From Actinomyces minihominis (GTDB taxonomy: Bacteria; Actinomycetota; Actinomycetes; Actinomycetales; Actinomycetaceae), in assembly GCF_900187855.1 (NCBI RefSeq), contig NZ_FYEG01000002.1:248001-312000 (forward strand): a stretch of 64,000 bases of DNA, given 5' to 3'. Under the pieces are notes generated by a model. It saw nothing but the letters and a program-made list of their open reading frames with translations, had not been told where the DNA came from and searched no databases. Of this stretch, positions 60,659 through 64,000 are shown in pieces. Positions within the stretch are counted from its first letter, which is position 1, and every line of letters starts with the position of its first letter. A program made the position numbers and the translations under genes.

Positions 60659-61612
60659 TCAAATCCGTCTCACAGCCGCAGTATTTGGCAAGACCTGAGA
60701 CGGAAGCGGAATAGTGGTACCCGGTAAGGACACGGCAGTTGATCCGTAGGCAACTGCAAGTGCCAGGCACTCTGCCGGCGGAAGCCCCTCCTCCCGGGCA
60801 ATCAGGTATCCGGCAGTCGCAGAGTCGCCTGCCCCCACGGTTGAGACAACATCTACCCTCGGTGAGGGCGAGAACCACACGCCCTCTTCAGTCGCAAGGA
60901 TGGCCCCGGCACCACCGAGAGTCACCAGTACCTCACCCACCCCCTGGGACCGCAGGGCGAGCGCGGCGTCACGGGCAGGCTCCAGGTCCCCCCTTTCAGC
61001 AAACCTCTCAATCTCAACCCCATCACGGCCGGTCAGCTGACCCAGTTCAAGACCATTGGGCTTGAGGAAGTCGGGGGCGGCATCAGCAAAGTTCTCAGCC
61101 AACGCCACCAGGGATGCATCTGAGGTATCCACCCCCACCCACACCCCGAGGGGGCGCAGTTTACGGATCAGTCGTGAGTACTCATCAACCGGGAAACCTG
61201 GCGCCAGCGAACCGGAAAGCATCACCGTATCCCCGGCTTGAACCGCATTGATTAGGGCGTCATCGACCGCCTCAACCTCCCGGGTTGAGAGTCGCTCCCC
61301 CGCCTCATTGATCTTGGTTGTCTCTCCGTCACCCAAGATTGTCAGGTTGGTTCGGACCCGACCTCTGACCGGAATCGATTGAAACGCCAGCCCTTCCTCT
61401 TTAAGCAGGGCAACCAGCCTGTCTGAGGAGTTGGCCGGCAGAAGCGCAAGTACGGGAACTCCGGCTGCCATCACCCCGAAGGCCACATTGACTCCCTTAC
61501 CACCGGGCTGGGTGGCATCAGAGTCAATCCGGTGCACTGCTCCCGGAGTAAGTGCAGAGCCGAGGGTGACGGTCCGATCCAGAGATGGGTTCGCAGTCAG
61601 AGTGATTATCAA
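60659..61612 (-). CDS. fruK: 1-phosphofructokinase
   Basis: PfkB-family kinase of 317 residues converting fructose 1-phosphate to the 1,6-bisphosphate. N-terminal MIITLTANPSLDRTV, substrate region QPGGKGVNVAFGVMAAG, ATP-site STVGAGDSATAGYL with catalytic Asp (~255). The start is TTG 61612 with GAGGGGG 4 nt upstream. With fruA it forms a compact fructose operon inserted between ribF and rpsO, which are often neighbours. Confidence 0.94.
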   Translation of the reverse strand: MIITLTANPSLDRTVTLGSALTPGAVHRIDSDATQPGGKGVNVAFGVMAAGVPVLALLPANSSDRLVALLKEEGLAFQSIPVRGRVRTNLTILGDGETTKINEAGERLSTREVEAVDDALINAVQAGDTVMLSGSLAPGFPVDEYSRLIRKLRPLGVWVGVDTSDASLVALAENFADAAPDFLKPNGLELGQLTGRDGVEIERFAERGDLEPARDAALALRSQGVGEVLVTLGGAGAILATEEGVWFSPSPRVDVVSTVGAGDSATAGYLIAREEGLPPAECLALAVAYGSTAVSLPGTTIPLPSQVLPNTAAVRRI

Positions 61613-61721
61613 GGCGCCCCCTCACGGTCACTACCGGACTCACACATCGCCCAAGCGGCACGGTTTGACCCCCCAGCTTAGAGCAAAGCAGTGAGCTACA
61701 CCACTGGTTGGGCCTGAGGGT

Positions 61722-62705
61722 TCAGAGACCCGCGGTCACTTTCGCGGGATCAACGCGGGTGGCACTGCGCGCTCCGAGAATCGCCGCTGTCGCGAGCAGG
61801 TCCTGGTCCATTTGCGAAAGGAGGTCATCGACCGAGTTGAACAGCATCATCGGACGCAGTCTCTTCACAAACACCACGGTGACTTCTTCACCATAGAGGT
61901 TGAGGTCGGTGCGGCCGAGCACGTGGGCCTCAACAGTCCTTGAGGTCCCCTGAAACTGCGGGTTACTTCCCACCGATATTGCCGCCGGGAGGAACTCTTG
62001 GCTATGCCCCACATCCCGCACCAGCCACCCGGCATAAACTCCGTCAGCGGGGACAAGCTGGCCGGCAACGGCGAGGTTAGCGGTTGGAAAGCCCAGCGCC
62101 CTCCCCCGCTTAGCGCCGTGAACGACGCAGCCGTTGACCCTCGGAAAACGACCCAGGACCCGGCTGGCTTCCTCAACATTGCCCTCTGCCATCAACTCCC
62201 GAACCCATGAGGAAGACCAGCGCCGACCTGACGGGGCTTCCACATCGGTGACCATGGAGACATCAAAGCCGTACTGGCGACCGTACTCTCGTAGCGTCTC
62301 AACATCGCCGCTGTTCCCGCGACCAAAGCGAAAGTCTTCACCAACGACGACCTCGACGGCTCCCAGACGTTCTACCAGGTAGTTCACGACAAAGTCTTCT
62401 GGACTGAGCATGTACAGATCAGGGGAATAGTTCGCCACGAAAACCGCGTCGACCCCGGCAATAGCCATGGCGTCGAGCCTGTCTTCGAGGGTCGCAATGA
62501 GTTCGAGAGGTTCACCCGGGCGATGCACCGACCTCGGATGTGGATCGAAAGTGAGCGCCACCGAGGGGAAGCCGCGCTTGCGGGCCCGTTCGACACAGGT
62601 CCCCACCACACGGGAGTGCCCCTGGTGCATTCCGTCGAAGTTGCCGATCGTGACCACAGACCTCTGATTGCCTGGAACTTCGTGAAGACTGCGCCAGATC
62701 TGCAC
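61722..62705 (-). CDS. ribF: Bifunctional riboflavin kinase / FMN adenylyltransferase
   Basis: Makes FMN and FAD; 327 residues. N-terminal nucleotidyltransferase with TIGNFDGMHQGHSRVV (~18-33) and VVGEDFRFGRGNSGDV (~122-137), C-terminal riboflavin-kinase barrel (~190-300) with GRALGFPTANL and YAGWLVRDV. GTG 62705 gives VQIWRSLHEVPG as in relatives, with AGGA 4 nt upstream; the open frame continues 12 codons. No FMN riboswitch is apparent upstream. Confidence 0.95.
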   Translation of the reverse strand: MQIWRSLHEVPGNQRSVVTIGNFDGMHQGHSRVVGTCVERARKRGFPSVALTFDPHPRSVHRPGEPLELIATLEDRLDAMAIAGVDAVFVANYSPDLYMLSPEDFVVNYLVERLGAVEVVVGEDFRFGRGNSGDVETLREYGRQYGFDVSMVTDVEAPSGRRWSSSWVRELMAEGNVEEASRVLGRFPRVNGCVVHGAKRGRALGFPTANLAVAGQLVPADGVYAGWLVRDVGHSQEFLPAAISVGSNPQFQGTSRTVEAHVLGRTDLNLYGEEVTVVFVKRLRPMMLFNSVDDLLSQMDQDLLATAAILGARSATRVDPAKVTAGL

Positions 62706-62726
62706 CGGTCCTACTTTCAATAGTTT

Positions 62727-62750
62727 GCCCCGCCATGTCACAGGCGGGGC
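62727..62750 (-). terminator. Hairpin between the Cys-Gly peptide gene and ribF
   Basis: GCCCCGCC (62727-62734) pairs with GGCGGGGC (62743-62750), 8-nt loop, 22 nt before the ribF start and about 36 nt after the small gene's stop. It could end the small gene's message or act as a leader structure of ribF. Confidence 0.5.
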
Positions 62751-62785
62751 TCTCTAGGTTCGATGGGTCAGCAGACCCGAGACTG

Positions 62786-62923
62786 CTACTTGTTGCTGCG
62801 GAGGCCCAGGTTGATGCGGCCTTCGTTGTCGACGGGTTGTCCTTCGCGCCCCTTCTTGCCGCCCCCACCACATCCGCAGCCGCCGCAGCCACAGCCGCCA
62901 GACTTGCGCTCTTCCTCAGCCAT
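62786..62923 (-). CDS. Cys-Gly-rich microprotein (45 residues)
   Basis: A short unlisted gene: ATG 62923 with GAGAGGG 5 nt upstream, 45 codons, stop TAG (62788-62786). The N terminus is acidic/basic (MAEEERKSGG), then a compact cysteine-glycine core CGCGGCGC at residues 11-18 (Cys 11, 13, 16, 18), a Gly/Lys stretch and a polar C-terminal half ending LGLRSNK. The four closely spaced cysteines could bind a metal or a cluster, or be oxidised. No homologue name comes to mind. It lies between truB and ribF, which normally adjoin; it is flanked by hairpin-forming sequence. Confidence 0.6.
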   Translation of the reverse strand: MAEEERKSGGCGCGGCGCGGGGKKGREGQPVDNEGRINLGLRSNK

Positions 62924-62995
62924 CAGGCCCTCTCTTTCCCGTGTGTTGCAACCAGAAACCCGTGAAGGTTACCAGCCGTGTCTTCGCGACGGCCA

Positions 62996-63985
62996 CTAGA
63001 CCGCAGCGAAGACAGTTACTGTTCTGAGTTCAAGACTAGTCGGTTCGGCCAGCTCCACCAGTCCCAAGACCGTGTCCCTACTCTCCTCGGAGACCAGGGC
63101 CCGAATCAGGGGAAACTTCGGGTTGCCTGAACCTGCGTCTCCGTAATCCACCACATCCTCGGGTCGGGGGGCTTGGCCGTGGCGGAACCTCTCCCTGGCC
63201 CGCCCTGTCACCACGACCGTGGGAAACAGGGTTTGAGCGGCTGTGCTCAGAGGGATGACCGGCAGGGGCTCATCCCTCTCACGCAGTTCAAAGAGGCTCT
63301 CCAAAGAGTGGCACTGACCAATGTCCCACGGCCCGTTAGAGGTCCTCCGCAACGCGGTGAGGTGTCCCCCAACACCCAGGTCAGCTCCGATATCACGCGC
63401 GAGAGCCCGAATATAGGTCCCGGAAGAGCACCGGACTTCAATGTCGAAGTCAACCACGGGAACCATTTTCCCGTCATCATTGACAGCAACCTGGGTGATT
63501 CGTGGGGCACCCAGGATCACCAGGCGATGGATAGTGACCGGGCGGGGCGGAATAACCACCTCTTCCCCATCCCGCACCAGGGCGTGGGCCCGCTTGCCAC
63601 CGATCTTGATGGCGCTGACCCTGGTGGGGACCTGCATGATGTCACCCCGGTAGTCTGCGACTGCCCGTTCAAGATCCAGCCCCGTCAGCGGTGGACACCC
63701 CGGGGACGCTATCACCTCGCCCTCGGCGTCATCGGAAACTGTCGTAACTCCCAGCCGCACCGTCCCCAGGTAGGTCTTGGGGGCCCCGGTGACGTACTGC
63801 AGCAGTTTCGTTCCCCCGTTGATACCGAGGACGAGGACGCCCGTAGCCATGGGGTCGAGGGTTCCGGCGTGGCCCACCCTGCGGGTCCCCGCAAGCCTGC
63901 GTCCTCGGGACACCACATCATGCGAGGTCATCCCCCCTGGTTTATCAACCAGAAGAATGCCCGCCTGCGGATTTGTTCCACTCAC
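62996..63985 (-). CDS. truB: tRNA pseudouridine-55 synthase
   Basis: Pseudouridine synthase of 329 residues acting on U55 in the T loop. DKPGGMTSHDVVSRGRR (14-30), catalytic D44 in VGHAGTLDPMATGVL, the thumb region, CSSGTYIRALARDIGADLG (~190) and a C-terminal PUA-like part. GTG 63985 has GAGGAAG about 9 nt upstream, right at the window edge. It heads the truB-ribF segment; rbfA/infB would be expected beyond the edge. Confidence 0.95.
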   Translation of the reverse strand: MSGTNPQAGILLVDKPGGMTSHDVVSRGRRLAGTRRVGHAGTLDPMATGVLVLGINGGTKLLQYVTGAPKTYLGTVRLGVTTVSDDAEGEVIASPGCPPLTGLDLERAVADYRGDIMQVPTRVSAIKIGGKRAHALVRDGEEVVIPPRPVTIHRLVILGAPRITQVAVNDDGKMVPVVDFDIEVRCSSGTYIRALARDIGADLGVGGHLTALRRTSNGPWDIGQCHSLESLFELRERDEPLPVIPLSTAAQTLFPTVVVTGRARERFRHGQAPRPEDVVDYGDAGSGNPKFPLIRALVSEESRDTVLGLVELAEPTSLELRTVTVFAAV

Positions 63986-64000
63986 GGGCTAAGCTTCCTC

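Follow-up and report, generated by a model that had tools for sequence, protein, structure and literature searches.

In the 64,000-nucleotide stretch of the Actinomyces minihominis genome analysed here (the window), a gene for a protein of 45 residues is located between truB and ribF. The order is truB, microprotein gene, ribF, all co-directional on the minus strand, with the following features.

61722..62705, minus strand: ribF (riboflavin kinase/FAD synthetase), by Pfam and NCBIfam; probable start GTG 62705
62727..62750, minus strand: strong hairpin GCCCCGCC-N8-GGCGGGGC in the gap between the microprotein gene and ribF, with no T-run
62786..62923, minus strand: microprotein gene, ATG 62923-62921, TAG 62788-62786, 45 codons
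62798..62821, minus strand: conserved motif GRINLGLR, residues 35-42, the most conserved part of the family
62870..62893, minus strand: Cys-Gly module CGCGGCGC, residues 11-18, which in relatives is present in several copies, often interspersed with HGHGH
62928..62934, minus strand: Shine-Dalgarno-like GAGAGGG, 4 nt 5' of the microprotein ATG, read from the sequence
62996-63985, minus strand: truB (tRNA pseudouridine 55 synthase), by Pfam and NCBIfam

The translation of the microprotein gene is MAEEERKSGGCGCGGCGCGGGGKKGREGQPVDNEGRINLGLRSNK (45 residues), in which the cysteines are paired and histidine is absent. A first-pass annotation of this DNA had placed the gene between truB and ribF, and Pfam and NCBIfam support the identity of the two neighbours. 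Its reading frame, from ATG through 45 codons to TAG, is also correct, with the minus strand left unstated, and CGCGGCGC is indeed read at residues 11-18 of the minus-strand translation. The ribosome-binding site that it called proper is present as GAGAGGG, but is moderate, with a 4-nt core match; and it overlooked both GRxxLGLR towards the C-terminal end and the fact that in relatives the gene overlaps ribF. As for ribF itself, the ORF caller puts its start at 62741, while for most RibF homologues from outside the genus the alignment begins only at residue 12 or 13, which suggests that the called start is probably wrong and that translation begins at GTG 62705. The distance from the microprotein stop to this GTG is 80 nt. 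The hairpin in the gap has the same sequence in G005 and a different one in G003, so that three of the six species of the genus have such a structure upstream of ribF and the other three have none there. No Rfam family matches in 61000-64000 of the window.

The 45-codon ORF is, as judged by comparison with its relatives, a real and selected gene. It is found in all six genomes of the genus, the other five being 73-93% identical to it over the matched part. The closest pair, G000 and G005, differs by 15 changes over 31.5 synonymous sites and 3 over 103.5 nonsynonymous sites, and the synonymous/nonsynonymous ratio is reversed when the two are read in the other two frames. In the tail, pN/pS is 0.12 within this genus and 0.28 across all within-genus pairs, ratios that are approximate since synonymous sites are near saturation and the pairs are non-independent. 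We also compare the two strands in the 700 nt upstream of ribF from 123 Actinomycetaceae genomes, the outgroup being 29 regions from the order's remaining families. Of the Actinomycetaceae regions, 70 have the Cys module on the sense strand and 1 has it on the antisense; the module and the tail motif within one ORF occur in 52 on the sense strand vs 0 on the antisense, and in 0 of the 29 outgroup regions. The search patterns were written after the family had been seen, and therefore the weight rests on the strand and outgroup controls. In the 64-kb window, the microprotein is the only ATG ORF of 30-100 residues with CxCxxCxC, whereas 60 dinucleotide shuffles of the window produce 1 such ORF in total (mean 0.017). 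A chance ORF is thus ruled out by the substitution pattern, the strand control and the shuffles. The first-pass view, that of a gene for a small protein whose position is not random, is well borne out: frame, cysteines and location are conserved across the family, the search of relatives it proposed finds frame and cysteines kept, as in all six genomes of the genus, and the codon-substitution comparison (15 vs 3 changes in G000/G005) indicates purifying selection.

To describe the family, a caller was used that scores Cys modules and LGLR-like motifs against a threshold set by the analyst. At the ribF locus 74 of 123 genomes are positive, two of them (G038 and G040) with a degenerate motif; reading the outputs adds G012, as well as G065 and G101 away from ribF, and together with G130 the total is about 78 of 124. 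Lengths range from 36 to roughly 165 residues with a median of 72 for the members having a scored start, where the starts are script-chosen, six members are without a start and a few of the lengths are uncertain (the 204 residues of G017 probably include upstream sequence). At least three cysteines are found in each scored member, with widely varying number and spacing. The CGCGG modules are repeated, often together with HGHGH, and their copy number differs even between species. GRxxLGLR, located mostly 2-3 residues from the C-terminus, is nearly fixed while the rest of the protein changes length; g23 has the LGLR motif at the N-terminus (NELGLRD), and in g4, g13 and g22 it is internal (as LGLT in g22). 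On the whole, the members compared here form a fast-evolving family, rich in Cys, Gly and often His, with a nearly fixed LGLR tag. A second gene with the same tag was sought in the genome, and none of the nine DNA pattern matches is convincing as a protein except the microprotein. The sister genus g10 is without a ribF-linked microprotein gene; CGCGG/HGHG modules are present there N-terminal to DUF2249 (PF10006) in proteins of about 200 residues (L258, L260, L261, L264 and L267). In addition, L262 of G029 has long CGCGGHGHH repeats fused to a domain that by eye is a PadR-like DNA-binding domain.

The gene order varies in an informative way. In about 45 of the 61 scored members, the stop codon falls between 4 nt into ribF and 8 nt ahead of its start, the overlap often being ATGA or TGATG, with the window gene farther from ribF. 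Since stop and start overlap or abut, a translational coupling of the microprotein gene and ribF is suggested for most relatives. Several g4 genomes have the gene following truB or 3.7-5.6 kb away from ribF, and therefore the link is with the truB-ribF neighbourhood, mostly with ribF, and is not obligatory. In the genera g3 and g9 (L132, L151 and L155), the space between truB and ribF is taken by a membrane protein that by eye resembles a NupC-type nucleoside transporter, and these loci lack the microprotein gene.

Outside Actinomycetaceae, no convincing match is detected in the samples of the order, class and phylum, in which about 20 candidates were scored per genome and a divergent copy could be missed; no ORF among the weak matches holds both a Cys pair and LGLR, and the gene is not found ahead of ribF in the order's other families. 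Inside the family, a whole-genome profile search gives no copy in most of the genomes scored as absent, relocated copies being found in g4 only. On the RibF tree of 91 rows, presence of the gene needs ten changes (bootstrap 10-11, shuffled mean 24.7), the base of this tree being weakly supported and the scoring of presence relying mostly on the ribF locus. Among the deep lineages, g4, g8, g11, g13 and g36 contain the gene, and together with the ten changes this suggests that the gene is ancestral in Actinomycetaceae and was lost repeatedly, with about ten changes in all. The many losses show that the gene is dispensable.

Searches against known families give little. The window protein matches no Pfam or NCBIfam family at E 1, and 23 relatives have just weak matches to other families in these collections, the best NCBIfam match in the family being to a sactipeptide family (E 0.017, one member). 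The PDB sequences include no significant match to the family, and no description of the microprotein was found in the literature. Structure prediction of the peptide alone from a single sequence gives a mean pLDDT of 59.5 and no confident fold, a low value that could merely reflect the missing alignment. Among known systems, the tail of SlyD is unstructured, His- and Cys-rich, and binds several Ni(II) (PMC7055735). The microprotein is similar to this tail and to the His-rich regions of HypB and UreE in having a low-complexity Cys/His/Gly run that varies among species and has no fold of its own (PMC7055735); the putative metal-binding segment is the Cys-Gly module here and includes His runs in many relatives. 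Unlike these proteins, it is free-standing, without an isomerase, GTPase or urease-accessory domain, and has its own LGLR motif; the FKBP-type isomerase domain of SlyD is absent, the whole ORF of 45 residues having no domain match in Pfam or NCBIfam. The bacterial metallothioneins (SmtA/BmtA, and MymT of mycobacteria) are likewise small and Cys-rich, whereas the microprotein has no Pfam match at E 1, regular CGCGG repeats often with HGHGH, and a conserved tail motif. No curated metallothionein family in Pfam or NCBIfam matches the window protein at E 1.

The best reading, to which we give about an even chance, is a disordered metal buffer or chaperone with thiolate/imidazole ligands and a docking tag, co-made with RibF. 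We infer that the microprotein would be a small, probably disordered, cytoplasmic protein of two parts, the Cys-Gly module and GRxxLGLR. Thiolate and imidazole ligands of the CGCGG module, often expanded with HGHGH in relatives, most likely coordinate soft or borderline metals (Zn, Cu(I), Ni or Co), and GRxxLGLR most likely docks the protein on a conserved partner; a motif that is kept during length change and relocated in some genera is most likely docking-like. The protein may then serve in buffering or delivering metal, rather than as an enzyme, and would be made with RibF from one message, with translational coupling in most relatives. This reading is favoured because CGCGG with HGHGH is like the SlyD tail and because the modules are also found on DUF2249 and PadR-like proteins, which fits a portable metal tag. 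Metal or redox chemistry, as proposed in the first-pass annotation from the cysteines, stays a suggestion, now strengthened by the HGHGH runs with which relatives extend this module, like those of known metal-binding tails. Against a metal buffer, the window protein has Cys without His, which also suits redox or Fe-S roles, the gene is dispensable and has been lost many times, and none of the candidate partners or metal genes tested follows its distribution. DUF2249 is absent from the window genome, and strong matches to COG0523/UreG metal chaperones are seen, by inspection and with no statistic, both where the gene is present and where it is absent; therefore neither indicates a partner. RibF residues that might track the presence of the gene show mild differences only. 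In a more specific form, to which we would assign a low probability, the microprotein would be a family-specific metal-delivery or metal-sensing protein, with LGLR docking on a conserved machine (RibF or other) and linking metal status to flavin-cofactor synthesis; a rapidly changing low-complexity metal module would then be joined to an almost invariant docking tag.

Several other explanations use the same observations. The microprotein might be a thiol redox buffer or an Fe-S carrier, with CxCxxCxC cycling between thiol and disulfide or holding a cluster, for flavoproteins or others; the paired cysteines and missing histidine of the window protein agree with it, as does a gene order that ties the microprotein to flavin-cofactor synthesis. 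We consider it rather unlikely, as the HGHGH runs in many relatives suit metal binding better, the cysteines vary widely in number and spacing, and no fold or known Fe-S motif is found by Pfam, NCBIfam or structure prediction. A partner or regulator of RibF, with LGLR docking on RibF and the Cys/His module making its activity metal-dependent, would account for the adjacency and the stop/start overlap in most members and for a gene order kept across deep lineages. However, g4 retains the gene though separated from ribF, RibF works without the microprotein in many genera, and its residues differ only mildly between genomes with and without the gene, making this role unlikely.

A further candidate is a cysteine-responsive leader ORF, in which ribosomes stalling at Cys codons would alter ribF expression and the peptide itself would be idle. 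In the window gene, four of eight successive codons shortly before ribF are Cys codons, most relatives overlap or abut the ribF start, three species have the strong hairpin before ribF, and a precedent exists in mycobacteria, whose polycysteine leader ORFs (Canestrari et al. 2020) are cited in PMC9094748. These are Cys-rich short ORFs upstream of an operonic gene in an actinobacterium, and here too a Cys-rich short ORF is directly upstream of ribF in most genomes, not in g4. The mycobacterial ORFs are leaderless, whereas the microprotein gene has a Shine-Dalgarno-like site, and differs from them also in its Cys/Gly alternation, its Cys-free conserved tail and its separation from ribF in one genus. 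This last point makes a leader role distinctly unlikely, since the g4 gene follows truB and sits 3.7-5.6 kb from ribF; in addition, conservation is strongest in the tail, which lacks Cys and retains its amino acids while its codons change synonymously, overlapping genes have no space for an attenuator hairpin, and the His-rich expansions are left unexplained. Finally, the gene might encode a RiPP precursor in which LGLR would be the recognition motif and the Cys-Gly part the core. It would resemble the sactipeptide type in being small and Cys/Gly-rich, with a fast-changing core and a short fixed motif, and one member has the weak match noted above. But the immediate neighbours truB and ribF are housekeeping genes with no modifying enzyme adjoining, and the motif is C-terminal of the would-be core in most members, so this origin is very improbable.

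Overall, a 45-codon ORF, below the usual size for gene finding, is a selected gene across a bacterial family, apparently ancestral and lost several times. Its pattern is unusual, with a nearly frozen eight-residue motif that shifts its place, while the Cys/Gly/His repeat next to it runs free. Should metal binding and docking both hold, this would be a minimal metallochaperone-like protein, and it may tie metal supply to FAD synthesis in these bacteria.
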